Made by a program: the position numbers and the translations under genes. From Bombyx mori (lineage: Eukaryota; Arthropoda; Insecta; Lepidoptera; Bombycidae), in contig NC_085129.1 in the NCBI RefSeq assembly GCF_030269925.1, forward strand, positions 16,483,501-16,547,500: a stretch of DNA of 64,000 nucleotides, written 5' to 3'. Position 1 is the first letter of the stretch. Each line of letters opens with the position of its first letter. A model generated the notes under the pieces. The model did not search any database. It saw only the letters and a list, made by a program, of their open reading frames with translations, and had not been told where the DNA came from. This document shows, in pieces, positions 10,970 to 38,617 of the stretch.

Positions 10970-11077
10970 CTACGTGTTCGCCGATGGCTCCTCGTCGTCC
11001 TCCTTCAGCGCTACCATCTCGGGCAGCTTGAAGTGCTGCATGTGGAATGGGGGCTCGGGACTGCTACACGCTGGAGT
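10970..11077 (-). CDS. BTB gene, isoform C terminal exon
   Basis: Acceptor caaggttcag, then 35 codons in phase 0 beginning TPACSSPEPPFHMQHFKLPE and ending EEPSANT with a TAG stop. The exon is GC-rich compared with its flanks. It follows the 19-codon exon at 12866-12923 in phase, giving the isoform a short Pro-rich and then acidic C-terminus. No domain is recognised. Confidence 0.72.
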   Translation of the reverse strand, partial: TPACSSPEPPFHMQHFKLPEMVALKEDDEEPSANT

Positions 11078-11107
11078 CTGAACCTTGAGTAGATGGGCAG
11101 CATTTTA

Positions 11108-11514
11108 AGCTAAAGTGTTAAGTGGTTACTGGAGCCCATAGAAATCTACGACGTAAATGCCGCCATCTACCTTGCGATATGAGTTCTAAGGTCTCTCAAG
11201 TATAGTTACAACGGCTGCCCCGCCCTACAAACCGAAACGCATTACTGCTTCAAGGCAGAAATAGGCAAGGTGGTGGTACCTACCCGTGCGGACTCACAAG
11301 AGGTCCTACCACCAGTAAAGTACGCTAATTATAATTTTGCGGGTTTGATTTTTATTACACATTATGTTATTCCTTCACCGTGGAAGTCAATCGTGAACAT
11401 TTGTTAAGTACGTATTCATTAGAAAAATTGGTACCCGCCTGCGGGATTCGAACACCGGTGCATCGCTACATACGAATGCACCGGACGTCTTATCCTTTAG
11501 GCCACGACGACTTC
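11108..11514 (-). mobile_element. Bm1 SINE, nearly full length
   Basis: Retains the tRNA-like head (cctgcgggattcgaacaccg and aggccacgacgactt on the plus strand) and lacks only the last few dozen tail bases. It lies in the last isoform C intron. Confidence 0.9.
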
Positions 11515-11839
11515 AATGTATGTGGCGTGGTCTTCTTCAATGGCCGAGGAGAATAGTCAGCGGTATACAGCTGCTTCACGGGCGGTAATGATCGGTCACC
11601 ACCAGGCCCGTAAGCCGGTCTCCCAACAAAAGGTAATGGAGCAACCCAACATGTCTATGTTATGGGAGAGCTGTTACAAAACTGAGACTTCGGATTCGAT
11701 GTCTATGGGATCTGCCGTTGGCTTTCGGCAGCAGTGGGAGACGCTTCCAGATGTCTACTAAATAGACGAAAAGTTCAAATAGCTTTTGTCATATACCGTC
11801 CACTGGAGAATGGATTTGGAAGGGTCCATGGTCTTCGCC

Positions 11840-11990
11840 GACCGCTGTGACGTATCCTTCTTTAAACGAGGCTAAGGGAGAGTCCTCAGGTAGCTAGAGG
11901 GTCCTTGATACTGCTGACGTCCATGAGGGATAGTAACCACTCACCACCAGAGCGCTAACCTCGTCTACTCGGAAAGACAATAAAATATAT
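11840..11990 (+). mobile_element. Degenerate CR1-like LINE 3' fragment
   Basis: The order gaccgctgtgacgtatcctt, taaacgaggctaagggagag, tagtaaccactcaccaccag parallels the 16.3-kb copy. The preceding 11515-11840 may be more of the same element but is too diverged to assign. Confidence 0.5.
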
Positions 11991-11999
11991 TCTTTCCAC

Positions 12000-12350
12000 A
12001 GCTGCTTATAGTCAAAATCTCGCCAAAACCCCCCTTAACAAGGACCTTCCACTTCTATCGAGACAAACTGCGGAAAGCTGTGATTATTTTGCATCAGGAC
12101 CGTATCCTGATGATTGAAGAGATACTTAAAGGATGTACCACTCACCACCATTTGCGGCTGCTCTTCCACTTTCGTGAACTGTTGATAAAAGAATTAATAG
12201 TATAATACTAATTTATTTATGTCGATGTGGCCTGAAATGCTCTTGGAGTCTGAAATCTTGGAGTTCTGGGGTGAACACGATTGCATAATCAAATCGACTG
12301 ATTAGCGACAGAATTGACGAAGATGATGTAGTAACGCAGATTTGCAAGAT
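12000..12350. other. Intronic spacer, possibly old LINE
   Basis: Contains gtaccactcaccaccatttg near 12135, reminiscent of the CR1-like tail. Otherwise no feature seen. Confidence 0.3.
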
Positions 12351-12351
12351 T

Positions 12352-12527
12352 AACCGGTTTTATTTTTATTACACGATGTTATTCCTTCACCGTGGAAGTC
12401 AATCTTGAACATTTGTTAAGTACGTGTAGTTCATTACAAAAATTGGTACCCGCCTGCGGGATTCGAACACCGGTGCATCGCTACATGCGAATGCACCGGA
12501 AGTCTTTATTTCGCAGGCCACGACGAA
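12352..12527 (-). mobile_element. Bm1 SINE head fragment
   Basis: Only the tRNA-like head and following 100 bp remain (acacgatgttattccttcac to gcaggccacgacgaa). Confidence 0.85.
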
Positions 12528-12865
12528 ATTACTAGAAAAATCCACGTACCTATCCAGGAAACACGAATGTCAGGCATGGAATCAAGAATTACTAGTCTTT
12601 TTAATTACTAATTTACTATTTTTCGATTTAGTTACAAAGTTTTTTATTTATTTTGGAAACTTCATAATAAAATCAATTTCGTTTAAAAAAAATGTATATT
12701 ACAGCAATACGCATAGGAGTTGCTATAAATTGTTTTTAAGGTATCTACGCGTTTACTATTTTCAAATTTACAATTAATTTGCGTTCAAAACGGTAAAACG
12801 TTAATGGTAAACCGTAAAAATCTTGAAACATGAAATAAATGTATTCATGAAATATGTGCACTTAC

Positions 12866-12923
12866 ATAATTAGTTCGCCCACGCCTTCGTTTCGGCAAGA
12901 TGCCTTTTCTCGCCATAAAGAAT
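12866..12923 (-). CDS. BTB gene, isoform C exon 9 (end of psq HTH)
   Basis: Acceptor ttccattgcag, entry in phase 2, then FFMARKGILPKRRRGRTNY, donor gtaagt, exit in phase 0. The FMARKGILPKRRRGR text is the standard completion of the isoform C psq helix-turn-helix begun in exon 14232-14383 (ISTI-R joined to FFMARKG). The basic RRRGR at its end resembles an AT-hook or nuclear-localisation run. Confidence 0.85.
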
Positions 12924-12979
12924 CTGCAATGGAAACAGAACTGTGAGGTTTTGTTCGAGAGATACCCTGAATCTTCTGG

Positions 12980-13110
12980 TCTACCATCGCATCGCCCGCC
13001 ACCGGAGCAGAGCTAATCATCACAGACAGTTTCCAGAGATGCTTTCTGCCACGTACCATTCGGCGTCTGTAATAAGCTCCACGACGTTTCCCGAGCGCTA
13101 CGACACGTCT
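12980..13110 (+). mobile_element. CR1-like LINE 3' fragment
   Basis: Shares cgcccgccaccggagcagag, gccacgtaccattcggcgtc and cccgagcgctacgacacgtc with the 16.3-kb copy. It begins within 60 bp of the 58-bp coding exon at 12866-12923. Confidence 0.65.
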
Positions 13111-13290
13111 TTAAAATACGCCTTTATTAGCTTCAGACGTATGTATGTTAGTATGTAACGGAATCTTTGAACATGATTTTGACCCCCTTCAAAACGTCGG
13201 ATTAACTCGAAATTTCGTATACTTATTAAGGACCGATGATATTCAACATTAAAAAAAAAATTTGAAAAAACTATTGAAATTCAACTAAAA
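13110..13290. repeat. Dispersed repeat F
   Basis: The text aacggaatctttgaacatga and cttcaaaacgtcggattaac recurs inverted at 51740-51850 and, more diverged, near 9000-9140. Confidence 0.5.
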
Positions 13291-13586
13291 AATTAAAAAT
13301 AAATATAAAAATGAATTGCTGTTCGTTAGTCTCGCTAAAACTCGAGTACGGCTGGACCGATTTGGCTAATTTTAGTCTAGAATTATTTGTGGAAGTCCAG
13401 AGAAAGTTCAAAAGGTAGATAAATATCAAAATGCTCGGAAATAAACAAAAATAACAATTTTGTTTTCGCTTTGATATGTCCCCCGTCGGACGGATTCCTT
13501 TTGTTTTGTTTTAAGTTTATTTTATACAAAAGTTTAGATCTTTTATTTATAGATTGAGGCACTACGAAGTCTGCCGGGTCAGCTAG
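13291..13586 (+). mobile_element. Non-autonomous Helitron-like element
   Basis: Begins near aaatgaattgctgttcgtta and ends tctgccgggtcagctag, then t. The CTAG terminus followed by T is Helitron-like. A shorter copy is at 35456-35679. The 5' boundary is approximate. Confidence 0.6.
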
Positions 13587-13619
13587 TGAAAAATAAATAA
13601 TATTTTAAAAAAACTAACA

Positions 13620-13840
13620 AAATACGCTTTTATAGAAAAAAATATTTTATTGTAACAAAAGCGTGGGGTGCATTGTGTCAGTAGTTATAAATATTTTATG
13701 AACAGATATGAGTAGAAGGGTTATTAACAAATTTTTTTTTTCTTACACTTCATATTTTTAATTTATTTTATTTTCTATTTTTTAGTTGGATTTTCTATAA
13801 ATGCGTATTTTGTTAGTTTTTTTAAACTATACTTTTTTCA
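13620..13840. repeat. Dispersed repeat E, copy 1
   Basis: Shares aatattttattgtaacaaaa, gcgtggggtgcattgtg and ttttttagttggattttcta with the copy around 51484-51730. Confidence 0.6.
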
Positions 13841-13952
13841 ATCTTAGGTCTGTGGAGAGTTCTCAGTAGTAGGTAGCGATTTGTGTCTCTAGCATTGGCT
13901 GATACATCAGCCATAAGGACCGGTCGCAGGAAGACACTTCAGAACAATTTAT

Positions 13953-14194
13953 TGGTGGTAGGACCTCTTATGAGTCCACACGGGTAGATACCACCACCCC
14001 GCCTATTTCTGCCGTGAAGCAGTAGTGCGTTTCGGTTTGAAGGGTGGGGCAGCCGTTGTAACTATACTTGAGACCCTAGAACTCATATCTCAATGTGGAT
14101 AGCGCAGTTACGTTGTAACGGTCTATGGGCTCCAGTAACCACTAAACACCAGGTGGACCATGAACTCGTTCTTCAATCTAAGCAATAAAAAAAA
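13953..14194 (+). mobile_element. Bm1 SINE, 5'-truncated
   Basis: Runs from tggtggtaggacctcttatg to the tail taagcaataaaaaaaa, 38 bp from the isoform C HTH exon. Confidence 0.88.
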
Positions 14195-14231
14195 ACTCTA
14201 GTACCGATTTTGGCTCCTTTGGGAGACTAAC

Positions 14232-14383
14232 CTTATAGTAGATATCGGGATGTTGAACTGTTCGGAAACCGTTTGGAAAGTGGACCCTCGACTGACGCAG
14301 TCCGCGGCCTGTCTCAAGACGACCTCACTGCGACGGATCCTCTTGTTTATGTGGTATTCCATCGGTTGAGACGACTGGCTCAC
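14232..14383 (-). CDS. BTB gene, isoform C exon 8 (psq-type HTH)
   Basis: Acceptor aactatgtttcag, entry in phase 0, 50 codons, donor AAG|gttagt, exit in phase 2. The protein reads VSQSSQPMEYHINKRIRRSE, then a psq-type helix-turn-helix with QAADCVSRGSTFQTV and EQFNIPISTI. The invariant continuation FFMARKGIL is supplied by the next exon at 12923. Pipsqueak-type HTH domains bind DNA in insect BTB proteins. The open frame continues upstream of the acceptor for about 20 codons, so an alternative longer 5' edge is possible. Confidence 0.85.
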
Positions 14384-14559
14384 CTGAAACATAGTTAACC
14401 TAACTGTCTCTCGGCAGCTACTGATGGCATCTTCGGCGTCAGTGCTGTGATGACCTATTGACTACTAGCCCATGTGTGTGCTGGTTTAAGATATTAGGTA
14501 GAAGTCCTGGGTTGGAGTTTAGAGAAAGAGATATCGCCCACCCACCCACCTATACGCGA

Positions 14560-14985
14560 AGGAAAAACTTTGTATCCCTTTTTACGAAAATTGCGCGGAC
14601 GGAGGAGCATGAAATTTCCCACACTTATAGGGAATATAGAGAAAGAGTGCAGAATGTTAATATTTTTTTAAATGATGCCTAAAAATACATTAAATCAATA
14701 AAAAAACATTACACACGTATATATTTGATACACACACGCACGTATAGGTACTATTTATTTATTGTCAAACTTTTGTTATTGTTTAAAGTCTGTGGTCAAA
14801 TTGAGAATAGATTAATGTTTTTTGTCTTTAAAAATTTTTTTTTAAAGTGTAGTAGCCATGTCCAAATTTGTGATTATAGAAGTATAAATAGCCTTTGACA
14901 ATAGAATCCTAGTAATGTTCAAACTTATAATTTCAATTATTTATAGTCGAATTTCGACTACTGGGCGACCACTAGTTGTTATAAT
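14560..14985. repeat. Dispersed repeat G, uninterrupted copy
   Basis: Same text as the flanks of the 1101-bp elements at 41797-41890 (inverted) and 43286-43870: gaaatttcccacacttatag, gtctgtggtcaaattgagaa, gtcgaatttcgactactggg. It preserves the undisturbed target site cacac-TTA-tag at about 14630 and is the empty-site reference for the inversion described in the findings. Confidence 0.75.
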
Positions 14986-15038
14986 ATGACAATGATGATT
15001 TAATGAGAGAGACATCTGGAAATTTCGATGGTGATTAC

Positions 15039-15152
15039 CTGGGGCTGATCTCGGACTTGTATCAGGTTTACCGACGGCGAGCTCCCGGGACTGATGGTCA
15101 TGATCTTCGGTCTGATCTCTAGGAAGGTAGGTGGTATCGCTGGGACCGTATT
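15039..15152 (-). CDS. BTB gene, extra phase-1 cassette exon
   Basis: Acceptor ctatcttctcag, 114 bp, donor CCCAG|gtaatc, entry and exit both in phase 1. It encodes a hydrophilic segment (EYGPSDTTYLPRDQTEDHDH through SPRSAPG). It can follow the common exon at 34569 in frame but cannot feed the HTH frame of exon 14232-14383 through that exon's usual acceptor. Entry there in phase 1 reads 19 other codons and stops. If retained without splicing it ends at 14941 inside repeat G. It could be a truncating isoform, use another acceptor, or be a decayed module. Confidence 0.5.
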
Positions 15153-15339
15153 CTGAGAAGATAGAACGCGATCCAAACATTATTTAATAAAAGTATGTAC
15201 ATAAAGTAAAATAATAAATAATGAGATTGATTCGAGCTATCTTCTTTCCATGATTTCATTTGAATGTAGTCGTATTTCTGCGCGTCCTAAAAAGACCTTC
15301 CACGTGACCACTTCTCGAAATATACTTCTCTTTTGTCCG

Positions 15340-15720
15340 TAGATTTTTTTTTATCTTTGAAGGTTTACTATGGGCCCGGAGGCCTTTCCAGTTTAACCAG
15401 GACATGTGGGCGAACAAAGGCTCAGCTAGGAGGGGTGGGATTTGCTAACAGCTGCCCGAGCGCCTCCGAAGGAGACCTAACAACTCAAAAGCAGCTGCTT
15501 CGCGAATCTACTACCGGATCGGAATCGCGACCCGCTGAGAAGATCCGGCGAGAAACTCAGCGGGCTGATGCATGAGTTAGGTTGCACGTCGAATTCGACA
15601 AAGAGTTCGACGAGTACGGTTACCGGGGTCCCTAAACCTGCTCTTAGTGTTAGAACTGAAGGCATCTAATTCAAGAGTTATTGGATCTGATGGATCCGTC
15701 AGGAGGTGACGTCCGTAGAT
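15340..15720 (-). mobile_element. LINE 3' end, BMC1-related
   Basis: The minus strand carries the DPSDPITLELDAF-like C-terminal text seen in Bombyx R1/L1-like ORFs, then the gatccggtagtagattcgcg block of the BMC1-like family. The plus-strand text aggcctttccagttt also occurs at about 57090. Confidence 0.55.
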
Positions 15721-16300
15721 CTTGTAGGTTGTATGATACTGAATTCTCTAATACTGACATCTTTTGTTTGACACTTGTAGCGTATAGAAATGCTATTTTG
15801 GAATAATAATAATTATTATAAGGTGATTTAGTCCGATGAGTATTATTTAGTTTTATAGTGTAAGTTGATGTACACAATAATATGTGCGTATTGTGTTGCT
15901 TTTGTTGTTAGTGTAAACTTAAATTTTAAATATATGTTTTTGTTCACTCTCTACTTATATGTCATTTTGACGGTGGAAACATGTTTGGTTATTGTTTTAA
16001 CTATTTTTTATTATATGTTTGCATTGTACTGTTGGTTTTCCAAATAAATAAATAAATTAAGCCGACATTATTGACAACACTCTTACGACTTAATCTCGCT
16101 TATAATATTGTCATTACAGCCAATCTTAACACGGTTAAGCGTTTGTTATGTAAAACCTTTACAACTCTTTAGTTTAAAAGATTTTTTTCCGAGAGATTAT
16201 CTGTATTGTCTGTCATGGAGAGAAAAAGGACTTCGGTTCCCTCTGTATTTTGTACCGTATGTTCCACGGGGAGTGCTCTGAGAATTGTTTCAGATGAGTT
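15721..16300. other. Intronic AT-rich stretch
   Basis: No exon or recognised repeat between the LINE fragments. It contains a short plus-strand AT-rich open frame with no coding character. Confidence 0.4.
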
Positions 16301-16319
16301 TGATGTTCATCTCGTTTTT

Positions 16320-16600
16320 ACTATTGCACCGCCCGCCACCGAAGCGGAGTTCATCAATACAACCTGGAGCCACTGCGGTCATCCACAGTGCGTTTCTAGA
16401 GATCTTTTTTGCGACGTACCATCCGACTTTGGAATGAGCTCCCCTCCACGCTGTTTCCCGAGCGCTATGATATGTCCTTCAAACGAGGCTTGTGGAGAGT
16501 ACTTAGCGGTAGACAGCGGCCTGGCTCTGCACCTGACATTGCTGAAGTCCATTGGTGACGGTAACCACTCACCATCACAAAAAACATTTTTCAATAATAC
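16320..16600 (+). mobile_element. CR1-like LINE 3' end
   Basis: One of the best-preserved copies: accgcccgccaccgaagcgg, gacgtaccatccgactttgg, tgctgaagtccattggtgac, ggtaaccactcaccatcac. It lies 75 bp from the isoform C exon at 16675. Confidence 0.75.
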
Positions 16601-16674
16601 TGTTTAAAATAATAATTTGAAAAGACGATTAAAGTGTTTCAATGTTGCTGTAGTAAGGACAAGGGATATCTTAC

Positions 16675-16820
16675 GGTTTTCACGTGCTGTATAATAAAGG
16701 CTGGAGGCTCGTCCTTCGTGCCGTAAGTGTGGTCGTCTGTGACGGTCACACGCCGGGTCGACTCCGCTTCTGAATCGGAGGGGCTGTCGTATTGGCACTG
16801 AACGTTGGCTATGGCGAACT
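16675..16820 (-). CDS. BTB gene, isoform C exon 7 (linker)
   Basis: Acceptor gtttatttcag, entry in phase 1, donor AAAACC|gtaaga, exit in phase 0. After the split Glu codon it encodes FAIANVQCQYDSPSDSEAES, then a Thr/Asp-rich stretch and FIIQHVKT. Phase 1 in matches the last common exon (34569), and phase 0 out matches the HTH exon (14383), so isoform C totals 375 aa. No domain is recognised. The GC-rich codons stand out from the AT-rich intron. Confidence 0.78.
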
Positions 16821-16937
16821 CTGAAATAAACGGCTCGTGATAAAATATTCCTAGATGTTTTTTTTTTTTTTAAGTATGGCAATTGGTTTCTTGCGATTTT
16901 TTTTTATGTCGAAGAGTGAAAGGCTCGTTTTTATTGC

Positions 16938-17240
16938 TTTGTTGAATGGACAAGCTCACGGCCTACCTAGTGTTAAGTGGTTACCGAAGCCCAAAGACAT
17001 CTACAACGTAAATGCCGCCACCTACCTTGAGATATCTAAGGTCTCAGTTTTTACAGTACAACGGCTGCCCCGCCCTTCGAACCGAAATGCGTTGTTGCTT
17101 CACGGCAGAAACAGGCAGGGTGATGATACCTACTCGTGCGGAATCACAAGAGGTTCTACCACCAGTAATTACACTATATATTTTTTGAGTTTCTTTTCAT
17201 TGCTTTCGTTATTCCTTCATTGTGGAAGTCATTCATGGAC
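16938..17240 (-). mobile_element. Bm1 SINE, diverged
   Basis: Tail half well preserved (gctcacggcctacctagtgt to gaggttctaccaccagtaat), head half decayed. A second partial Bm1 tail piece follows at about 17240-17335 (cctgctcatggcccatccgg). Confidence 0.8.
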
Positions 17241-17335
17241 CTGCTCATGGCCCATCCGGTGTCGGGCCGCCCGAAGCCCATAGACATCAGTAATGTAAGC
17301 GCACCTTAAGATATGAGTTCTAAGTCTTAGTAACT

Positions 17336-17855
17336 TTTTTTATGTACCCAAGCATATGCAGGATGTATATACGAATATGAAGAAGGAGTTACGTTAAGGA
17401 AGCAAGAGATGGGCCCCGGGATAAACCCCTCTAAACGGGCAAGAACTCCCTGCTCCTGCGAGCGGGGGTGAGTTTGGGAGGGGGGTGCGTGTCTGCGTGT
17501 TCTCGGCCGGAGAAACGTTGACTTGATATATGGTATATGACGGGTCATGATATCCCTAGCCTGTATAGACTAATGCTTACCAAGCACCTTAATCATCATA
17601 AGCCCTCTCACAAAGATTTTATGAGAACATACCAGGCTCAGTTCGGGTCAGATATTCATTGAAGTGAGACGTTTGCCAATTTTCCTCACTATCTCCAAAT
17701 TCTTTTATTACAATTAGTTATTCATTATAAATATTGTGTAGTGTCGAATAAATCCTTTTTTAAAAAAGAGTTCGGCCTTTTCACTACTAACATGGATGCG
17801 AACCCACCGCTGCGCTGTCGCCCTGTTAGTAGTTCTCAATACAAACAGGGCGACA
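17336..17855. other. Intronic spacer
   Basis: A GC-rich patch at 17400-17515 is open on the minus strand but has no splice context. The rest is AT-rich. No feature assigned. Confidence 0.35.
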
Positions 17856-18299
17856 TCTTTTTTTAAATTTTTTATTGCATTATGGTCGAGCTCACAGCCC
17901 ACCTGGTGTTAAGTGGTTACTGGAGCCCATAGACATCTACAACGTAAATGCGCCACCCACCTTGAGATATAAGTTCTAAGATCTCAGTATAGTTACAACA
18001 GCTGCTCCGCCCTTCAAATCGAAACGCATTGCTGCTTCACGGCAGAAATAGGCAGGGCGGTGGTACCTACCCGCGCGGACTCACAAGAGGTCCTACCACC
18101 AGTAATTACGCAAATTTTAATTTTGCAGGTTTGATTTTTATTACACGATGTTGTTCCTTCATCGTGGAAGTCAATCGTAAACATTTGTTAAGTACGTATT
18201 TCATTAGAAAAATTGGTACCCGCCTGCGGGATTCGAACACCGGTGCATCGCTACATACGAACGCACCGGACATCTTATCCTTTAGGCCACGACAACTTC
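17856..18299 (-). mobile_element. Bm1 SINE, full length
   Basis: Complete from the tRNA-like head (ggccacgacaact on the plus strand at 18299) to the tail. The head has a B-box-like GTGTTCGAATCCCG on the minus strand. Confidence 0.92.
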
Positions 18300-18634
18300 A
18301 ACTCTGTGCACGAGACTGGTAATTCAAATAATACACTTCGTTTATTTGTTTTTGTATTTAGAAAAATCATATATTATATCATACAAATACAGAGACCCGT
18401 AAATTCATAATTATTCATGAATAATTAATATTCATTATACCAATATTTCGATGGTCTTAATGCTAAGTTAAAACAAACAGTATGCAAGTTTTATTTGGAG
18501 TCTCTCGTGAGAGAACAAAGTTATACAATGTTATATAGCTCCGGATAAACATGCGCTTTGGAGAATATTTCGTATTTGAACACAAATATATAGAACTGGT
18601 TACAATTCAGTGCGGTTTGTGCGAGTTTTTTTTA

Positions 18635-18990
18635 ACGTTCTCGATAGCGTAAAAGTTAACTCAAATTTGTATGGAGTTTTTTTCTTATTGCTTAGATGGG
18701 TGGACGAGCTCACGGCCCACCTGGTGTTAAGTGGTTACCGGAGCCCATAGACATCTACAAAGTGAATGCCGCCACCTATCTTGAGATATGAGTTCCAAGG
18801 TCTCAGTATAGTTACAACGGCTACCCCACCCTTCAAACCGAAACGCTTTACTGCTTCACGGCGGAAATAGGCAGGGTGGTGGATCTACCCGCGTGGACTC
18901 AAAACACGCCCTACTACCAGTAAAAAAAGGTTCTACGATTACCTACGTTTGCCGCTAGAGGTGCTGTTCCAACTGCCTACAAATTCGTAC
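18635..18990. mobile_element. Fold-back MITE A split by a Bm1
   Basis: Left arm acgttctcgatagcgtaaaa at 18635-18676; the core and partial right arm (ttgccgctagaggtgctgtt) resume after 18926. The Bm1 at 18677-18926 lies between, so the SINE arrived later. Confidence 0.8.
18677..18926 (-). mobile_element. Bm1 SINE inside MITE A
   Basis: 5'-truncated copy, cttagatgggtggacgagct to cacgccctactaccagt, nested in the fold-back element. Confidence 0.88.
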
Positions 18991-19057
18991 TACGTTAAAA
19001 AGCTCGCACTAAGTACACAAAAGCATTGCAATTTGAATGCTTCATAATAAACAAATA

Positions 19058-19326
19058 CGAGGGGTGACAGGCCATTTATCTTTTATCTTATCATATCTTT
19101 ATCTTATACATTTTATCTTTGTAATTAAAGATCCCTTTTATTTGGTATCAGCATCGACAATTTGATGTTTTTAATTGGACTTCAATTAAGCTTACGCCAT
19201 TAGCCAAATAGCTGAAAAAGTTTTTGTGTTATAATATTTTTTCCAAATGCTTTAACTTCAAATGGCTCTCTCGTGTAAAGTTCCAAAAATGTCGCTTAAA
19301 CCAAATAGCCTTTCGCCCCTCGATAT
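19058..19326. mobile_element. Fold-back MITE B
   Basis: Arms acgaggggtgacaggccatt and accaaatagcctttcgcccc, with the internal marker cttcaattaagcttacg. One of the more complete copies. Confidence 0.78.
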
Positions 19327-19654
19327 GTACTTACGAAGTACCTTAGGTCTACAAGGAAAAAAAATCGAAGAAAAAAAACTAAACTTTATAAATCATCTAT
19401 AATATCAAACGTGAAAATAACGAAACAACTTTAATGCGATTCAATAATATTTTATTTCATTAGTTTAACAAATAAAAAAAAACATTTTAAGTCCATAAAA
19501 ATAAATTAATGACTCTATTGATATATATTTCTTTACGGCCAACTAAGCAGACATAAGCTCTGATGTCATAAGGGGTTAGTGTAAATAAATGTAGCATCTA
19601 GGGTTGCCAGACGTCACGTATTTCCTGGGACGTCCCGTATTTTAGGCCTAGTTT
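19327..19654. other. Intronic AT-rich spacer
   Basis: No recognised feature. Confidence 0.4.
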
Positions 19655-20000
19655 CAAATGTCCCGACGGGACTGACTCTGCCCCTACACCTCATTACGAA
19701 TCCTCCCGATCCATTAACGGTGCTTTTAGGCACCACAAGAACCGGTCACCGTCCTCGTCAAACCCGTCGCTTGTGACGATTCACTCGACGAGTCAATTAA
19801 CCCACATACACAGCGCACTGAATTTCTCGCCGGATCTTCTCAGTGTGTCGCGTTTCTGATCCAGTGGTAGATTCAGCGAAGCACGGCTCTTGCTAGGGCC
19901 ATTGTTAGCAACGTTCCGGTTTGAGCCCCGTGATCTCACCTACATGTTAGGGCGAAGCTGAAATAGCCTATCAAGGCTATCAGCATAGGTGGGAAAAAAA
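19655..20000 (+). mobile_element. BMC1-like LINE 3' end
   Basis: Starts near ccgatccattaacggtgctt, passes the cctcgtcaaacccgtcgctt and tcttgctagggccattgtta blocks, and ends ggctatcagcataggtggga followed by A's, so the strand and a 3' poly(A) end are clear. Confidence 0.78.
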
Positions 20001-20644
20001 TTGTCCAGTATTCGAACCGTACGATTATCTGTATTGATTTATATAAATATGTTAAAAGCGATAAAAATAAGTTAAAACTGACTTGCTCCTCGGAATAATA
20101 TCAAAAAAATAAAGAATGTCACTCCTTATATAATTTTGTTTTTTATTTGTCCCGGGCAAACAACTAAATTCCCGTATTTTTGGCCTGTTTAAGCATTTGC
20201 CCCTTATAGGCTAAAAAAAAATCTGGCAACCCCAGTAGCATCTATAGTGAAATCGTTAATTTTCATCTAAAATGACGTCACAAGTACCTAATGGTGTTCC
20301 CCTGAGACTAGTTTCAAAGGTATTCGCTGCTAATAAAATTAAATACTATATTAAATAAAATAAAAAATACTTTTCGGTTCCTTATTGATGAAGAACGGAC
20401 TCAAAACACGCGAAAGATGCGTTTTAAATTCCAATTAAGTATCTTCAAACGTTTTTATAAGCACAAGCGATGCGTATTAGCGCTATGAAATTTATTATTT
20501 TCTTACGTACGAAAGATTGTATCTTAACAAAATAGCGAGGGAAATCGAAATTAAGGCGATGCTTGAATACACAATCTATAGACGCAAAAGATCGCTATAT
20601 AAATATGCATACAACAAACTGTGAAACAAGAATTATAATTCGAA
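20001..20644. other. Intronic AT-rich spacer
   Basis: Includes an isolated atgacgtca-like motif at about 20271. No gene or known repeat seen. Confidence 0.4.
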
Positions 20645-23408: not shown

Positions 23409-23800
23409 TTAGAGCGATTCATCGTAGCGCTCCGAACGGGACTCCACCATCAGGTCCAAGGGATCTAAGATCTGAGTTGGTCTCGTCCCCCGCCTGCCTT
23501 TAGAAAATTGACTCTTTATATCATATTTCTCCATCCAATTCCTTAGAGTTTTCCTGGGCACTCCATATTTGTTTGATGCTGCGTACACGCTGTAACCCTT
23601 CTTGACGGCGATCAGAGCGTCTCTGAGATGCTGCGAGGAATATTGCTTATAAGACTTTTCTTGGAACACGTCGGTCTCGATATTCACGATGGCGTTAGGC
23701 CTCCGCCCCACGACCCGGGGCCTTGCGTGTATGTTCATTGGTATACCGTTATCCATATCAATAAAATGTCTTGTGACGATTTTCGTTGACGTCCTCAAAC
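23409..23800 (-). CDS. BTB gene, isoform B terminal exon (complete psq HTH)
   Basis: Acceptor gcttgttccag, entry in phase 1, 392 bp to a TAA stop. Joined to the common exon ending at 34569 it gives a 351-aa protein (this part residues 222-351). A complete, unsplit pipsqueak-type HTH lies at about residues 275-320 (SSQHLRDALIAVKKGYSVYA, then VPRKTLRNWMEK), preceded by a basic VVGRRPNAIV stretch and followed by a basic FSKGRRGTRP tail. The VPRK-LRNWM signature is nearly the same as in isoform A, so A and B probably share a structural class but differ in recognition residues. The link to the BTB exons is inferred from strand, splice phase and family; no transcript was available. Confidence 0.78.
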
Positions 23801-24872: not shown

Positions 24873-25013
24873 GAAACGTATCCACATTATTCGACCCAGC
24901 GCGGTAGCGGTTAGAGCGCGCTACCAAATCATTTATACATATATCACCGCATTTTATTTAAATTGATAAATATTCAATATGTGTTTCCATATTGGGAATA
25001 CCGAAAACACCAT

Positions 25014-27152: not shown

Positions 27153-27162
27153 ACCAGTACAT

Positions 27163-28974: not shown

Positions 28975-29066
28975 AGAGGCTTGGTCGTACCCCTGGCAGT
29001 GATGAATTAACAGTAACCACTCACCATCAAACGGGTCCTATGCTCGTCTGCCGATTTAATAAAAAA
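28975..29066 (+). mobile_element. CR1-like LINE 3' tip
   Basis: gtaaccactcaccatcaaac and tgctcgtctgccgatttaat plus an A-run are the usual terminus. Confidence 0.65.
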
Positions 29067-29109
29067 TATCGTATCGCTTTTATTGGAATCGGAAACGAAG
29101 ACACTTGAT

Positions 29110-29297
29110 GAACTATCAAGTCGTGAAAGGCTATTTTTGCACATTTACCGGAAAGTCATTTATAGTTTAAATTTTTGAAAAACTTATTATTGAAGTTCAA
29201 TTAAAAACATCGAACTGTTGATGCCGATGCCAAATAAAACGCAACTTTAATTACAAAGATAAATGTCGCGTGTTAAGCGAAATGTCGCTTGAACCAA
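29110..29297. mobile_element. Fold-back MITE B, truncated by Bm1
   Basis: Internal and right arm text (gaagttcaattaaaaacatc, gtgttaagcgaaatgtcgct) stops at the Bm1 head at 29301. Confidence 0.68.
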
Positions 29298-29300
29298 GTC

Positions 29301-29468: not shown

Positions 29469-29519
29469 CTTGACGTACTGATTAAAAGGCAAATCTTGTT
29501 AAGTTATTAGTGCGAATTT

Positions 29520-29652
29520 TTTAACGTTCTCGATAGCGTAAAAGTTAACTTGAATTTGTATGAAGTCGGATCGTTTGCCTACGTTTGTCGCTAGGGGCGC
29601 TGTTCTAACTCCATACAAATTCGAGTTAACTTTTACGCGATCGAGAACGTTC
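29520..29652. mobile_element. Fold-back MITE A
   Basis: Complete palindrome around cgctaggggcgctgttctaa; arms cgttctcgatagcgtaaaag and cttttacgcgatcgagaacg. Confidence 0.85.
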
Positions 29653-29754
29653 GCAAATGACACGCGAAAAACACACTCAATCGAATAAGGTTAAATTACT
29701 AAGTTTTATTAAGTAACGTTTAGGAACATATTTGTATTAATTAAATATTATTGA

Positions 29755-29760
<6 letters not shown>

Positions 29761-29791
<31 letters not shown>

Positions 29792-29988
29792 GGGGATGAA
29801 AGGTTATTTGGTTTAAGGGATATTTTTGCAGCTATACAGGAGAGCCACTTAAAGTTCAAACATTTGGAAAAAATATCATAACAACAAAAAAACGGCTTCA
29901 GCTATTAAAACGGAGTAAACTTAATTGAAGCTCAATTAAAAACATCGAAATGTTATAGCTAATAAACCACCTTTCATCCTACGATATG
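29761..29988. mobile_element. (TA)n plus Fold-back MITE B
   Basis: A 28-bp (TA) run at 29761-29788 directly abuts the MITE arm cgggggatgaaaggttattt. The element continues to about 29988 (cctttcatcctacgatatgc). Confidence 0.7.
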
Positions 29989-30506
29989 CAATCTTTAATG
30001 TTTGTTATTCTGACACCGCTAGCGCCATCTATTGGGTTTAGTGGAAAACGTAAAGTTGTTTCACTTCGTTTTAATTCGCTTGAACTAGAGTTAGTGACGC
30101 GATGAGGACTGTTGCAGCTACATTGGCGTACAGTATCGATCGCGTATCGGACTCTACACACTTGATTTTTATGTTCATCGTTTTAACGCAATTCCCGAAA
30201 TTCCGGGGAATTTTCGCGAGCTGACAGCACCGGCTCCAAGGCTTTCCTATTGCACGTGTTTTTGTTACAAACACTTTTTTGTCTTAACGAAATAAAAACG
30301 GAAACTAAAAAATTAATAAGAACAGTTTTTTTGTAAATCAATACGAATTAAATTTTCACGTGAAGCTTATAACAGATTTCGGGTTAAAGCTCAGCTTTTA
30401 TATACTTTTAAAGTGAAGTTAAGGTCATTAAGTGGTCCTACGCTTTTTACATGACAGGTTACGAGATCCACTTGACGAAATACTTTGATTTACAAACGAA
30501 TATTTA
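29989..30506. other. Intronic spacer, GC-richer start
   Basis: 29990-30270 is open on the minus strand but shows no splice-compatible phase with the BTB gene and no domain. Not called. Confidence 0.35.
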
Positions 30507-30692
30507 TTTATTTATTTATTGCATAGATGGTTGGACGAGCTCACAGACCACCTGGTGTTGAGTGGTTACCGGGGCCCATAAAAATCTACACCTTGAGATA
30601 TGAGTTCTAAAGTCTCAGTATAGTTACAACGGCTGCCCCGCCCTTCGAACCGAAACGCATTACTGCTTCACGGCAGAAATAGGCATAATTTC
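30507..30692 (-). mobile_element. Bm1 SINE fragment
   Basis: attgcatagatggttggacg to cacggcagaaataggcat, with an internal gap after ggcccataaaaatctacacc. Confidence 0.82.
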
Positions 30693-31380
30693 CTGTCAGC
30701 CCCTTGGCTTCATCTCCTCTCTGGCTTTAATGGCTTCGAGTCTTCAACTTTACGATCTGGTGTTACCAGCGTTTTATGACGTCACATTCATTACGCGCGC
30801 GCGTGCGAGAGGGATAGCTAAATTACCCTATTCCACGCCCATTTTGGCCTAATACCCAAAACTGTTTTATCATTTCGCAAGTTAAATTGACAATTTAAGT
30901 ACATATTCCATTTAAATTGCATTCAACATTGTCATTGTTATTATACACAACAATGCAAGATGCGATAATTAAAACTTACATACATGTACGAACAGGTAAA
31001 AAGCTAAAACCGTTTTATTAATATACATAAAAACTTTACATAAACATTTTCAAGTCTTTTAATATTTCTTAAATTTTTTTTAAACGAATGGACGTTGTCC
31101 CTTTAAGCACTCAATATTAATAATTTTCAAGGCCAAGTTTGTTTTTAAAACTAGTAAAAAGTTTTTAGTTTTTTTTTTTTTAATAACAAATTTGACGAAA
31201 ATGATATTTTAACAAGTCACTGCATTTCTTAGTGGGTCACAGTACGTGACGTCATACGTGTGGAGCTGGGTTGTGGCTACAAGTGACGGTTGCTCTCTCA
31301 GTCGAGTTCTGTGGTTTCCCATAAATCTTGGGAGGCTCATTTTGATTGAACAGTCTCCCTTCTGTGTGCTTAGTTTTTTA
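30693..31380. other. Intronic spacer with CRE-like site
   Basis: An exact TGACGTCA is at 31247-31254 in the setting cgTGACGTCAtacgt, which also occurs at 10188. A short (CG)-rich run lies at about 30795. No gene seen. Confidence 0.35.
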
Positions 31381-31510
31381 ACTTTTCGACCGCGTTAAAG
31401 TTAACTCAAATTTGTATGGAGTTAGAAGGTTTGCCTGCGTTTGCCGCTAGGGGCGCTGTTGCAACTCCATACAAATTTGATTTAACTTTAACGCTATCGA
31501 GAACGTTAAC
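31381..31510. mobile_element. Fold-back MITE A
   Basis: Palindrome around ccgctaggggcgctgttgca; arms slightly diverged (cttttcgaccgcgttaaagt). Confidence 0.82.
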
Positions 31511-32285
31511 GGACACGTATTACGCAGAAGTTTCACTTGAAACCTTGGTGCCCATCCATGAAAACTTTCAATCGCACAATTATTGAAGCGAATCCAAATC
31601 TTTACTTGTGTTAACTATAGTGTCAATGGAGGGCAGATTTCTGCATAAAATTTGCACGATTTTTCCGGCGTCTCAATGACAATGTCAGTGTAAAAAGTAA
31701 TTTTAATACGATTTTCGTCAAATCTATTAAAACACACTTATTTATAAATATGTATAACTAACATTAATAAGTAAAAGAAATACGTTACAACATTAAGTAT
31801 CAATAATTAAAGAATAAATAATCAAATTTAAATATACTTTTTTTCAATGGCAACATTACGAAAATGCTACCACACGAAACACGTTTTTTTCCCGTAATTT
31901 TAAAACTCTTTGGATTCTATTGCAACATTATCAATAATTTATAATTTCTTTGGGAAAATCGTTTGTTTAAAATACATTCGTTAAATATATTAAATATCTT
32001 TGCTTATTTCTTTGGCAGTTATATATCCTCGTATACAAACGACAGGCCACATTTTTTTATTTTTCTATATAATTAGATATTAATTTTAATATATAAGTTA
32101 CAGTCATTTTGTATTATTAATTTTCTGAACACGTTTCCATACTGCGAATTCTCTATTAATATACTTGTATTTAGAATTTGTTTGACAGTACAAATTAGAG
32201 TGGACTTAGAATACGCCCAGCCATCGGCGCATAGACAATTTTTTTAATTTTTTACAGTATTTTATTTTATTAGACACAATGATTA
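31511..32285. other. AT-rich 3' flank of BTB isoform A
   Basis: No repeat or exon recognised. Confidence 0.4.
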
Positions 32286-32291
32286 TTTATT
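32286..32291 (-). terminator. Likely poly(A) signal of BTB isoform A
   Basis: AATAAA on the minus strand about 107 nt beyond the isoform A stop codon, at a normal distance. Confidence 0.45.
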
Positions 32292-32397
32292 ATTATAAGA
32301 TTAGAGGCATGGTTTTCTTAATTTAAATCAGAATAGCACCGCGCAAAACATTCAGTGTCTTCATTCCACAAACCGCAGTATGGCAACACAAGACAAA

Positions 32398-35300
32398 TTA
32401 TTCATGCAATGACATATCAAGGACGGTATTGCCATCGCAGTCGCCCTTTAATTCGGGAGATTTCTCCCCAGTTTTGGGGGCTTCGTCCTCGCTGGACACA
32501 TTATTCGCGAACGACAGGAAATGCTTGCCAAAGTCCAGTTCGGTTTCGTTCTCGCTCTTGTCCTGAGGCTGAGGGTCGCCCGCGTTGAGGCACTCGTAAT
32601 GCTTATACTCCTTCTGACGCTTGCTGTTCTCGACGAACTGCTTCAGTTGCTGCGGCATCGGGAAGGACGACTTGATGTGGCAGCGCTTCATCCAGTTACG
32701 CAGCGATTTTCTGGGCACTTTATGAGTTTGGGCGGCCCTGCAGCGAGACAGTCTCGTTGAGGCTCGTTTATGGGTCACATTGTTTAAACGAATTCAATAA
32801 TTACTGGTGGTAAGACCTCTTGTGAGTCCACACGGGTAGGTACCACCACCCCGCCTATTTCTGAAGTGAAGCAGTAATGCGTTTCGGTTTCAAGAGTGCG
32901 ATAGGCGTTTAACTATACTGAGACCTTAGAAATTGTATCTCAAGGTGGCTGGCGAATTTGCGTTGTAGACTTCTATGGGCTCCAGTAACTACTTAACACC
33001 AGGGGGGCCGTGAGCTCGTCCACCCATCTAAGCAATAAGAAAAAAACCAGATGGTGAGTGGTTACCGTCGCCCATAGACTTCAGCAATGCCAGGGGCGGA
33101 GCCAGGCCGCTGCCTACCGTTAAGTACTCTCCACAAGCCTCGTTTGAAGAAGGACATGTCATACCGCTCGGGAAACACCGTGGAGGGGAGCTCATTCCAA
33201 AGCCGGATGGTACGTGGCAAATAAGATCTCTGGGAGCGCACTGTGGATGAACGCAGTGGCTCCAGGTAGTATGGATTTACTCTACTTCGGTCACCAACAC
33301 AAAGATCCAATACAAACCTATTTATCTTAATGATTATACAAAATATATTACCTGTAAATACTCCCGCCCTTCTTGACATCCATTAGGGCTGCCCACATGG
33401 CCTCGTTCGAGTACCTCCTATTAGGATTGAATTTCCCCATCATGACCCTCTCCAGGTCTTTACGCGACAAGCCCGAGGAACTGATCTCTTTGCCCTCCAA
33501 GAACTGATCCAGGTCCGACTTGAGCACCGTGTCGCCTATATCAACGTTTTTATCTTTGAAAATAGGCGGCCTGCCCCTTCGTCTGATCTGCGCTTTTTCC
33601 CCGATTTTCCGGTAAATCTCTTTGTTGACAACACTTTTGGGGATCAGTTCCACCTCGGATTTTTGCGGTTTCTGCTCGATCCTCGACTTCTTCACTTGGC
33701 TCGCTCTCAGGAGAGACACTTCGAGCTCGCCATTTTGCTCCAACCATGATTTGTAATAGTCATTCTCTGCTTTCTCTGCGTTCTTCTGCTGTAAATATTC
33801 TTCTGTGGCGTTCGTATTGAGCCCGTATTTGGAAAATTCATTTTTTATTTCCACAGCGTTCATTTTGGATAGCCTGTTGATGTATTCGGAATTGGCTTTC
33901 GCTAAATTCTGCAGTTTATTTTGAAAAAACAATTCGCTCTCCGGCTTCACGCGCACGTAGTCGCGGCGGCTCCCTAAAAACATAAGTGTTGCCAGTGAAA
34001 AAAATTCAAATTACCACCATTGAACCATGAATGGGAATATGGAAGGTAAATAAAAAAATAATTAAATAAAAAAAATGTCTGTAAGATCAGCCCTGGAAAG
34101 GACTTAAAATAAACTTAAAAATTAATAAATAAAAAATTAAAACATTTACAACTACTTTAGAACATTCATGGTCCAATTGTATTTCTTTTTTCTTGTTTAA
34201 ATAACATTCTACTGATTCACAAATACATCAAAACAGGCCTACCTTACAGACATTTTTTTACTCTTCTTACGCACATTGGAAATAAAAAACAAGGATCACT
34301 TCACAGATTAAGAAAGAAAAAAAAAACGATTCATCGCGACGCCATTTTGAAAATTTGTACACTTGTTTTTTTTTTGAGTTTTTTCTTTTATCGGCCGAGA
34401 CAAACGTATAAAATAATCAAGGATTTTATTTTATCGGTGAATTATCCGAGGAATTTTCCGAAAATCAAATCACAGATATCGATGGAAACTTTCGAGCGAA
34501 ATTCATTTAATAGTTATCCCACAAATTATTAATTAATTAACAAACAAGCGTGCTGCTAAAAGTCTTACCTGATGGCTGACCAAGACTGCTGCCCGGTTTC
34601 CCTGGTTCGTCGTCCTGAAAGATAAAAAAAACCATAAACTTTAAGCTCGCATTTGTTAATAAAGCCCGTAAGTAAGCCGGTATGAATGGTTGCCAATGGC
34701 AAAAATAGACTTTTGGACGAAAATTGCGATATTCTTACTTGTTGTTGCCTCTTAAACTGACAATGAACACAGCTAATTTAAAGGTTTACAATTTCGGTCC
34801 AAAAGCATATTTTTCATCTTTATTTTATTTATATACTGCTTAGATAGGTGGATGAGCTCAGAGCCCACCTGGTATTAAGTGGTTACTGGACCCCATAGGC
34901 ATCTACAACGTAAATGCCGCCACCCACCTTGAGACATGAGTTCTAAGGTCTCAGTATAGTTACAATGGCTGCCCCGCCCTTCAAGCATTACTGCTTTTTT
35001 TTTTTTTTTCTTTGATGGTTGGACAAACTCACAGCCACACAGGTGTTAAGTGGTTACTGGAGCCCAAGGACATCTACAACGTAAATGCGCCACCCACCTT
35101 GAGACATGAGTTCTAAGGTCTCAGTTTAGTTACAACGGCTGCCCCGCCCTTCAAGCATTACTGCTTGATGGCTGAAATAGGGTGGTGGTACCTACCCACA
35201 ACACCTCCTACCACCACTAAGCTACTCCTCACCTCGTTGTATTCCATGGGGTCGTTATCCATTTCGCCGTAATACAGTCCGTCTTCCTCGACGGTTTCCT

Positions 35301-38300
35301 CCTTCACATCAGCAGCCAGGTCTTCAGATTTCCGTTTCTTAGGTCCGTTGGGAGATGACTGGGGTATCGACTTAGGCGCTTGACTCGGTCCTGACGAAAT
35401 AAGGGTGTCTGCTTAATTCATTTGTTACAGCCGAATTTGGACACGATTTCAAATAAATACATATATATATTTAAAAATGAATTGCTGTTCGTTCGTCTCG
35501 TTAAAACTCGAGAACGGCTAGACCGATTTGGCTAATTTTGGTCTTGAATTATGATGGTTTGGAATTGATGTGTCCCCCGTCAGACGGATTCGTTTTGTTT
35601 GTTTAAAGTTTATTTTTTACAAAAGATTAGGTCTTTTCTTTATCGATTGAAGCACTACGAAGTCTGCCGGGTCAGCTAGTACATACATTATATATGAACA
35701 CCGTAAATTACTTTGACGCGTGAGGTCTGCCCCTCAATCTGAATGCAAATTATTATTATATCACATTGTGTATTTGTACATATATATGTAGGTATGGTAT
35801 TTGTGTATGTGTGTGTGTATGTATATATTTCAATAGATTGGTACACCGCGTGTAATTCGTTTCCAAATTATTCTTGTCCACCTGATGGTTGTCTGGTAAA
35901 GATCGCCTCTATCTCTGTCTCTCTCTCTCTCTCTCTCTTTCACACTCTCTCACTCTCTCACAGATTTTGCTATAGTTCAAGTCTAACATCTTTGTTGACT
36001 AAAAAAGCACGTTGCCTTACCATTGGTAGTGGGGTTGTCCTTCTGTGCGTTCGCGACGAGGGCGTCGCTGGCGACGGTGAAGTCCTTCGTCTCGGGTTTG
36101 CTGTCGGTCAGACCGGAACTGTCGTTTGAGCAGAGACCTGTGGAGGAATTGACCATCACCGACCGGAGCTATCCGAATTTACAGTATACTACTCAAGGGG
36201 TTATACTAAATTCACAAAACCAGTATGTGAGCTCACGGGGCTCAAACTAGGGGTGTTGCTAACACTGGCCCTAGCAAGAGCAGTGCTTCGCAGAATCTAC
36301 CCCCGGATCGGAAACGCGACCCACTCAGAAGATCCAGCGAGAAGCTCAGCGGGCTGTGTCTATGGGTTGATGGAATCATAAGATGTGTACAAAGCTATAT
36401 ATCGCATCCCGGCACGATAAAGGAAGCAAAGTCACGCCATCTAGCGGACCTGGGCTGCAAATACCCGTCAAACATCGGCTCACTTCGGAGTCGCTTCGGT
36501 AGAGTCGAGATGTCATCACTCGGGAATCGAAGCACATTTTTGGCCTGATATCTTAGATTTGTGACCACGCTTTGTAACGCCAGTAATACTAGGGACAAAA
36601 CCAAGTCGCTGGGTAACTGAGTAACGACCTTATTAAAATTCTTTTGAAGAAAGATATTCCATAGCAGCCAGAGCCGGACGGTACGTCATCATCGTCATTA
36701 CTATTTCAGCCTAAAGCTGTCCACTGCTGATCTCCACTCATACCCACCAACAACACCACCAGCACACCACACACTACACCACAACGTAAGCCAGCGATTT
36801 TCACCAGGTCGTCGGTCCATTTGGTAGGTCACAAATAAGATCTTTGGAAACGCACTGCGGATGAATGCAGCGGTTCTATCTAGTATAGATGAACTCCTAT
36901 CAACGGTAATGGGATGGTAATAACGCGATAATTCCATAATTTTCTAATTATGCGTCTACCCGATGCTTCGTATAATTAACAGATCGTATTGGATCCATAC
37001 CGGCAGTGAAACTTAAAAGCCGACAGAAGAAACTCACCTCTGATCTGCAGAGCCTCGGCTGACTTCAGGAGGCTCGGCAGCTCCTCTTGGGTCACGTTCA
37101 CTTCCCCTTTGTACATAAAGTCGACTAGTGCCTGCATTTCACTGAACCTGAATTCAACATAAGATATACTCTCACAACCACCATTCTTATTTGAAGCAGC
37201 AATGAACATAAAATTTATCTTAATTCTTTACCCTTTACGAGTAAACGGCAAAAGGAAGATCTTTCATTGAGCAGGTGATATTACCCTCTAATATTATTCA
37301 ATGTTACATAAGAAATACTCAAGAAAATAATTTTTTACAATATTTGACGGTATTTGGCATTAAATTTAAACGTCGTCTAATAACACCCCAGCCATCCGTA
37401 AGTGACCACGGAAACAGTATAGTAGTCGAAACGTCTGCAATAATAAACGCAAGATTGAACAATAAAGGCAGTTTTTTATGTCGAAAATACCGAAGAAGAA
37501 ACTTTATCGTAGTCTATTTGTACAGTGTGAATACAAGTGGAGGGTTTTATCAGATCGCGTGGGAGCTACCATCCTGACAATTTCTGTTGCAAAACATGCC
37601 AGTTTCAATAGTGAGACAACTGTAATACAACTGATCACATGTCGAGCTATAGACGAATAATGTTCTTGACTTAAATAAAAGGTGCTCACCTCATGTCCCG
37701 CATCAGGACGATGGGATGGTCGCAGGGGTTCTGCAGCAATAGCCTCTCGAGGTACGCCGAGCATGCTGACAAGACCAGCTTGTGGCATCGCAGCTGACGC
37801 GATTCGCACGCTAACGTGACGTCAGCGAATTGTTCGGTCAGTAACAGGCGCGGGAAAACGGCCTGTTGAAGAGCCGAACTATCAGACCAAAAGGGTCTAT
37901 GTGAAAGCATCATATTGTCTCCAAACACGACCCGGGGATGACTAATATTGATGACTAGCTATTACACGCGGCTTCTTCTGCATGCTCAAGGAAAAATGTC
38001 ACATAATTTTTTCTAAACATAACAAAGCAGTTTTCAGAAGTTCCTCTTTAGGTAACTTATAGCAAGAAAACAATTATCTTTAAAAAAAACCATTTGATAT
38101 TCACACAAACAGATTTTTATAGCATATCTTTTATTATTTTCCGCGATATAAGGAACCGATAACGCTGTTAGGTACATATTGAACTGACTTAAAAACAATG
38201 GGAGGATGTTTTAGAATTGGGCTCTATTTTTTGGTGTATTATTAACCTCAGAACTATTTTCCAGGTGACACCAATATTCATTATTGTTTTCTTATTTGAA

Positions 38301-38617
38301 AGCCAGTGCTTCTGGTGTGGTCTCGTATAATTGTACCAATATCTAACCAATCACTTTTGATTTAATAATGCATGTTCAATTGAACTTTAACTATATTGAT
38401 GACATTCGATTTCCTTTTTTTGTTACCGAAATAGAGAACTATTTAAAGAAATATATCAGCAACACTAAAGCCCGATAATTGGTACTAAACAAAAGACTAA
38501 ATGCCGAGAGAAAGGTACTTAAATGCCTGCAAATTTATATATATACAGAGCACTCACCTGTAGATTAGTGTGATAAGAATTCCAACGGACGCAAAACTGC
38601 TGGGGTTGCAGCGCCAT
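32398..38617 (-). CDS. BTB/POZ-psq transcription factor, isoform A
   Basis: Eight coding exons join in perfect phase: 38617-38558, 37862-37690, 37147-37038, 36137-36021, 35390-35233, 34614-34569, 33973-33352 and 32737-32398; 541 aa. The start [20 protein letters not shown] is the classic N-terminus of tramtrack-type BTB domains, and the BTB fold runs to about residue 115 ([33 protein letters not shown]). Then come a Ser/Thr/Asn linker, a KKRK basic signal (about 171-174), an acidic stretch, a Lys/Glu-rich probably helical region, an AT-hook-like RRRGRPP (352-358) and a pipsqueak-type HTH (about 407-455, [11 protein letters not shown]). The HTH is split by a phase-2 intron inside an Arg codon. 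It is expected to be a nuclear DNA-binding regulator that dimerises through BTB. The psq text resembles Drosophila Ribbon/Bab-type proteins, but I cannot assign an orthologue. The first six exons are shared with isoforms B and C. Confidence 0.85.
32803..33038 (+). mobile_element. Bm1 SINE, 5'-truncated
   Basis: ttactggtggtaagacctct to ctaagcaataagaaaaaaa, in the intron that splits the isoform A psq domain. Confidence 0.88.
33046..33300 (-). mobile_element. CR1-like LINE 3' end, coding remnant
   Basis: The minus strand encodes [19 protein letters not shown] and [19 protein letters not shown], the standard C-terminus of CR1/jockey-like reverse transcriptases, then the 3' UTR. It lies about 50 bp beyond the splice donor at 33352 and must not be mistaken for a BTB exon. 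Confidence 0.82.
34836..35221 (-). mobile_element. Two Bm1 SINE fragments in tandem
   Basis: 34836-34997 and 35000-35221, each starting at the tail text (ggtggatgagctcagagccc; ggttggacaaactcacagcc). The second reaches ccacaacacctcctaccacc, 12 bp short of the splice donor at 35233. Confidence 0.85.
35456..35679 (+). mobile_element. Non-autonomous Helitron-like element
   Basis: aaaaatgaattgctgttcgt to gtctgccgggtcagctag, followed by T; shorter sibling of 13291-13586. Confidence 0.62.
35790..35960. repeat. Simple repeats (TG/TA and TC)
   Basis: tgtatgtgtgtgtgtatgta at about 35803 and a TC-rich run at 35911-35959, in the intron just downstream of exon 36021-36137. Confidence 0.8.
36222..36372 (-). 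mobile_element. BMC1-like LINE 3' end fragment
   Basis: gtgagctcacggggctcaaa, gccctagcaagagcagtgct, gagaagctcagcgggctgtg. Confidence 0.75.
36390..36950 (-). mobile_element. CR1-like LINE remnants, interrupted
   Basis: 36655-36690 (agccggacggtacgtcatc) and 36830-36950 (ggaaacgcactgcggatgaa, ggttctatctagtatagatg) are pieces of one LINE 3' end. Foreign text between them (ccaccaacaacaccaccagc) looks like another old insertion. 36390-36610 is unassigned. Confidence 0.5.
37148..37689. other. BTB gene intron between exons 37690 and 37147
   Basis: AT-rich, no repeat recognised. It splits the BTB domain in phase 2. Confidence 0.5.
37863..38557. other. BTB gene first coding intron
   Basis: Non-repetitive by eye, phase 0, bounded by CTACAG|gtgagt and cttcaacag|GCC. 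Confidence 0.5.

Follow-up and report, generated by a model that had tools for sequence, protein, structure and literature searches.

Constant 5' exons encoding a Tramtrack-group BTB domain, joined to variable 3' exons encoding DNA-binding domains, have been described for the genes lola and mod(mdg4) in two papers (PMC11426971, PMC4667647). The same plan, which these sources give for Drosophila and other insects, was found here by means of gene models and comparison at a locus of Bombyx mori contained in a 64 kb stretch of DNA (hereafter, the window), itself part of a searched silkworm genome of 461.7 Mb in 30 contigs. As judged from its sequence, this locus is very probably a single Tramtrack-group BTB gene with alternative 3' terminal exons, each of the resulting tails (A, B and C) carrying a psq-like HTH. 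No literature on this gene or on the swapping of psq HTHs was found among the matches listed in open-licence papers. A preliminary description of this DNA had called such swapping less familiar than the lola and mod(mdg4) designs.

The gene is encoded on the minus strand (Table 1). Its common part, which codes for the BTB domain followed by an acidic linker, consists of 664 nt over six exons (38617–34569) and has a phase 1 end; the coordinates, GT-AG sites and phase proposed for these exons were all verified. The same holds for the three alternatives, each of which lies on the minus strand, begins at a phase 1 acceptor with GT-AG sites and continues the common part. The joined open frames of A (541 aa) and B (351 aa) have the lengths initially proposed. 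For C, the four exons starting at 16820, 14383, 12923 and 11077 were correctly placed, but two more (15152–15039 and 12178–12146), both represented in protein P0001, had been missed, so that the 375 aa first proposed correspond to a four-exon form and the full six-exon form has 424 aa. The four-exon form was dropped as the main product, it being the six-exon form that equals P0001; as the two added exons each have a length divisible by three, a 375-aa C may also arise through exon skipping. An intron interrupts the HTH of A after ...GGSIYR and that of C after ...STIR, with that of B being undivided. The first AATAAA or ATTAAA is located 107 to 349 nt past the stops, such hexamers being common locally (the scanned stretches contain 44, 19 and 35 of them).

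Table 1. Exons of the common part and of tails A, B and C, in window coordinates.
Feature	Position	Strand	Remarks
Common exon 1, start codon	38558..38617	-	same start in P0001 and P0120
Common exon 2, BTB	37690..37862	-	PF00651, E 1.5e-23 to 3.3e-23
Common exon 3, BTB end	37038..37147	-	open frame, PF00651
Common exon 4, linker	36021..36137	-	open frame, splice sites
Common exon 5, linker	35233..35390	-	open frame, splice sites
Common exon 6, phase 1 end, donor ATCAG/GTAAGA	34569..34614	-	donor from which all three tails diverge
Tail A exon 1, linker with RRRGRPP and first HTH half	33352..33973	-	equals P0120
Tail A exon 2, second HTH half and stop	32398..32737	-	first AATAAA 107 nt past stop
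Tail B, single exon, undivided psq-like HTH and stop	23409..23800	-	first ATTAAA 349 nt past stop
Tail C exon 1, EFAIANVQCQYDS...	16675..16820	-	P0001; genome search with C tail
Tail C exon 2, 114 nt, in frame	15039..15152	-	P0001; genome search with C tail
Tail C exon 3, most of HTH	14232..14383	-	HMM; genome search with C tail
Tail C exon 4, HTH end FFMARKGILPKRRRGR	12866..12923	-	HMM; genome search with C tail
Tail C exon 5, 33 nt, in frame	12146..12178	-	P0001; absent from genome-search rows, probably too short
Tail C exon 6 and stop	10970..11077	-	first ATTAAA 307 nt past stop

Since the gene models at this locus match Bombyx mori proteins exactly, we take it to be the silkworm gene LOC101737369. 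Letter for letter, the predicted isoform A is P0120 (Bombyx LOC101737369 isoform X1) and the predicted six-exon isoform C is P0001 (Bombyx 'bric-a-brac 2 isoform X3'). No Bombyx-named record joining the BTB to tail B was present among the 20 matches of that tail, and the B junction in Bombyx itself is predicted from the sequence and from other moths. The database name of P0001 looks doubtful, as the BTB is only 36% identical to that of the silkworm locus C13:8273614-8274714, which we take to be bab and which has its BTB and psq HTH in one 520-aa frame. The common region had at least 45 matches in the silkworm genome, five of these being exons of the region itself; among the remaining matches (at least 40), the highest identity is 47%. 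Relatives of LOC101737369 carry many names (bric-a-brac, tramtrack, lola, abrupt and fruitless), a scattering through which its isoforms are readily overlooked.

The BTB/POZ domain (PF00651) was identified in all three isoforms. A search of the PDB aligned the BTB of CG6765 (8rc6) from residue 7 (E 3e-11), at rank 6 after entries for ZBTB17/BCL6 and KBTBD4. We take 8rc6 to be of the TTK type. Tramtrack-group BTBs possess an N-terminal extension of the QQFCxRWNN type, for which a 14-residue stretch at the N-terminus of the silkworm protein is a candidate. According to PMC11426971, BTBs of this group are able to form hexamers, and the label 'dimerisation domain' given to the BTB in the preliminary description may thus be too narrow.

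HMMs were built from 71 HTHs of the A/B type and 95 of the C type, and a six-frame scan of the window with these identified three strong HTHs, those of A, B and C, with no strong match for a fourth HTH tail. A weak C-type candidate at 29155–29030, within intronic sequence separating A from B (E 0.047), scored 11.5 bits against 11.4 for the best of 20 shuffled windows and would be either chance or a remnant. A string like FxIPIxxIRYF is retained in this stretch.

The tails had been said to carry psq-class HTHs. Profile comparison, together with the folds predicted for B and C, supports kinship with psq, but the scores with the Pfam psq model (PF05225) are below its cut-off of 20.4 bits in A (16.4) and B (17.2, or 19.2 for the tail alone) and there was no psq match in tail C; 'psq-like' is therefore the safe term for all three. 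Among 28 members of the A/B type, Pfam matched HTH_Tnp_1 in 28 and psq in 26, with weak E-values. The matches among 33 C homologues (MerR 17, MerR_1 10, psq 5) do not allow C to be classed by Pfam alone, because the five psq matches may include P0002, which also has the B HTH, and P0050, which has other HTHs. For comparison with psq domains of the silkworm, 20 of its 26 psq matches were used as source, one of which (L024) was omitted from both the tree and the hhalign set. Pairwise hhalign to the remaining 19 domains, a measure not calibrated against a library, gave 98.6% for A/B and 97.1% for C. The predicted folds comprise three helices each, at 55-66, 71-78 and 82-91 in B and at 153-165, 170-177 and 181-191 in C (modelled on its relative P0022), with a 10-residue mean pLDDT of 77-96 over the HTHs. 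In fold searches the human LCoR HTH (2cob) was ranked first for B (E 0.038) and third for C (E 0.39), these being weak matches amid many other HTH folds.

Comparison of the three domains with one another showed two types, with the HTHs of A and B as sisters and that of C distinct. A and B are identical at 24 of 48 positions and have the block VPRK[S/T]LRNWM in common at the position of helix 3, while B and C are identical at 11 of 37 aligned positions and A and C at 6 of 27. In a tree of 27 rows A and B were grouped (87/84) and C stood apart (100/98); the branches of this tree are long, 12 of its 24 forks are open, and the starred branches are two inside the C group and one pair of other silkworm rows, the A–B branch not being starred. 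As the recognition helices of A and B are nearly the same, the 'several DNA specificities' first proposed may be two rather than three. These resemblances would also fit a reading in which the swap alters regulation, through linker, stability or partners, with A and B binding the same sites and only two DNA specificities arising from the three tails. Against it, the basic stretches flanking the HTHs differ (RRRGRPP in A, GRRP in B, KRRRGR in C). We regard this reading, which is compatible with the explanation preferred here, as a possibility of some weight that is nonetheless doubtful.

The swapping of tails on one BTB front is best seen across species. Database matches numbered 54 for tail A, 20 for tail B and 104 for tail C, so the pattern exceeds chance. 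In a comparison based on one BTB-bearing protein per tail per named species (P0032, P0164 and P0169 were unused), the isoforms were identical up to the splice boundary in all six species with three tails, namely Manduca, Helicoverpa, Amyelois, Battus, Papilio machaon and Ostrinia furnacalis, the identical stretch being 216–233 aa, or 143 aa for the Ostrinia A protein, whose start is missing. The same was found in 12 of 13 species with two tails, the exception being Nymphalis io, where the identity of A and B extends over no more than 114 aa. Three further species, Spodoptera exigua, Iphiclides and Brenthis, fell outside this comparison, their B or C models being without a BTB. Tail B is 88–92% identical in 11 moth and butterfly species, in each case with a BTB in front. 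With splice phases that fit, A and C annotated in Bombyx and the tails recurring on identical fronts in moths and butterflies, the claim of one BTB front with three swappable HTH tails is upheld.

Short contigs also join the BTB to the tails. In the set P0132 (A), P0115 (B) and P0019 (C), which was picked out by the identity of its members and is encoded on contigs no longer than 1861, 1838 and 2121 nt, respectively, A and B agree completely along 231 aa, as does C along its available 149 aa. Given that in Bombyx the intron leading to B measures 10.8 kb and that leading to C 17.7 kb, the best reading of these contigs is spliced RNA. P0117 (1276 nt) and P0119 (1566 nt) similarly join the BTB to B, and P0048 and P0051 join it to C. 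Some contigs from the same source look genomic, such as that of P0111, which has B and no BTB and was apparently read out of an intron.

Among the 173 proteins, a BTB was found by motif in 46 of 50 with tail A, 15 of 21 with tail B and 95 of 103 with tail C. The remaining models (4, 6 and 8, respectively) have no BTB. Five of these BTB-less models (P0002, P0007, P0008, P0013 and P0030) run B into C, from which it appears that some annotators saw a separate gene. Such fusions, along with one of A and B in P0143, are probably gene-model artefacts, because their joints differ.

The common donor at 34569 would be spliced to one of the three same-phase acceptors at 33973 (A), 23800 (B) and 16820 (C), with each tail supplying its own stop, to give a product of one self-associating BTB module and one of three psq-like HTHs. 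The alternative terminal exons most likely operate in cis, in that an early tail with its poly(A) site would compete with splicing onward to a later tail, so that splicing to A would be set against skipping on to B or C. The tails would bind DNA, A and B presumably reading similar sites and C different ones. An improbable alternative is that the tails are transcribed from separate promoters and trans-spliced to the BTB RNA, in the manner of mod(mdg4) and lola; PMC4667647 reports trans-splicing of mod(mdg4) in Lepidoptera and Diptera, and separate tail transcripts would account for P0111 and for the models lacking a BTB, but with the tails on the same strand, in order and less than 24 kb from the donor, cis-splicing suffices and two RNAs are unneeded. 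That the B and C exons form an independent gene further downstream, with a promoter and a start of its own, the BTB junctions being annotation artefacts, as might be supposed from the moth and butterfly models with B and C and no BTB and from P0022 with C alone, is scarcely credible in the face of the BTB fronts on most B and C proteins, the short contigs joining the BTB to both tails, the fit of all three acceptors to the phase of a single BTB donor, and the different points at which P0007, P0008 and P0013 exit B, as ab initio predictions do.

The preferred explanation, alternative terminal exons on a single BTB gene, can be carried further by the distribution of the tails. Matches of tail C include moths, beetles, flies, a lacewing, a damselfly and mayflies. 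Those of tail A include 48 moths and butterflies and one Anopheles. For tail B, 16 of the 20 matches bear a species name and all 16 are Lepidoptera; no dipteran tail B was found among these 20 matches of a word-based search, and its absence outside Lepidoptera is weak evidence, as such a search needs shared words. Dipteran BTB proteins resemble the silkworm gene in that the BTBs of P0039, P0082 and P0173 are 59–62% identical to the silkworm BTB. The tail is C in P0039, P0082 and P0088 and A in P0173, with P0082 and P0088 called dipteran by likeness, and these four proteins probably belong to the CG8924 group. As the BTB of P0173 from Anopheles christyi is 92% identical to that of P0039 from Phlebotomus, one dipteran gene very likely carries both A and C tails. 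The best match of tail B outside the window is the C13 locus, with 38% identity over 53 aa, compared with 50% to the HTH of A, and tail C had no strong match elsewhere in the silkworm genome (E 8.7 at best). We tentatively suggest, as a plausible history, an old psq-swapping locus in which C dates at least from winged insects and A predates the divergence of flies from moths, B would have derived from A through local duplication in the line of Lepidoptera, losing the HTH intron and then becoming nearly fixed, and a change of tail would send one BTB complex to another of two or three sets of sites in the genome.

Compared with the systems described, the locus adds psq-like HTHs to the zinc fingers and FLYWCH domains that serve as the variable DNA-binding part in the constant-BTB design. 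It resembles BTB-psq proteins such as bric-a-brac and pipsqueak in having a Tramtrack-group BTB ahead of a psq-type HTH, but in those proteins a single frame contains both BTB and HTH, whereas here the HTH is chosen among three tails. It differs from lola and mod(mdg4), which have C2H2 fingers or FLYWCH, approximately 20–30 variants and trans-splicing, in having three psq-like HTH tails on one strand. With only three tails it offers a tractable case, as each could be removed alone in the silkworm or a laboratory moth, which is hard at lola and mod(mdg4). The pattern is a psq variant of the published Tramtrack-group design whose parts are not wholly new, since two of the isoforms, A and C, are annotated in databases. 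It appears to represent a known insect route to obtaining several gene switches out of one gene, though with tails of an unusual kind.

The weak frame resembling the C-type HTH, located within the intron that separates tail A from tail B, scored 11.5 bits, with the top score among 20 shuffled windows used as background being 11.4 bits, and is either a chance match or a remnant. The frames which we take to be a mariner-like transposase are spread over overlapping reading frames and the element is therefore probably broken; the HTH matches of its first frame were all under the Pfam cut-offs. The perfect inverted repeat may have arisen very recently by inverted duplication, may be part of the structure of a mobile element, or may be an artefact of the assembly.

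Features in the window beyond the exons of the BTB gene
Feature	Position	Strand	Particulars
C-type HTH-like frame	29030-29155	-	
Mariner-like frames	46183-47237	+	
Inverted repeat	40690-43288		arms 1107 nt (40690-41796, 42182-43288), spacer 385 nt
Tandem repeat	58829-59004		12-bp unit, 14.7 copies, 78% matches
Long open frames (two)	1738-2526, 2860-3423	+	Asn-, Asp-, His- and Lys-rich
Open frame	60578-60886	-	

The Pfam scan, which covered the first of the two long open frames, gave nothing over cut-off. The open frame at 60578-60886, presumably with likeness to a proteasome subunit (e.g., PSMD13), had no match in its Pfam scan.

Among the database gene models for this locus, that of P0158 (Eumeta) had taken a mariner transposase into the linker; tails A and B were fused in P0143 (Leptosia) and tails B and C in P0002, P0007, P0008, P0013, and P0030. 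All of these models are probably prediction errors; the fused ones may alternatively be real double-HTH isoforms. The naming of the tail C proteins (P0038–P0097) varies by species, with tramtrack, bric-a-brac, abrupt, fruitless, lola, jim lovell, GAGA factor, and zinc finger 131 all having been applied.
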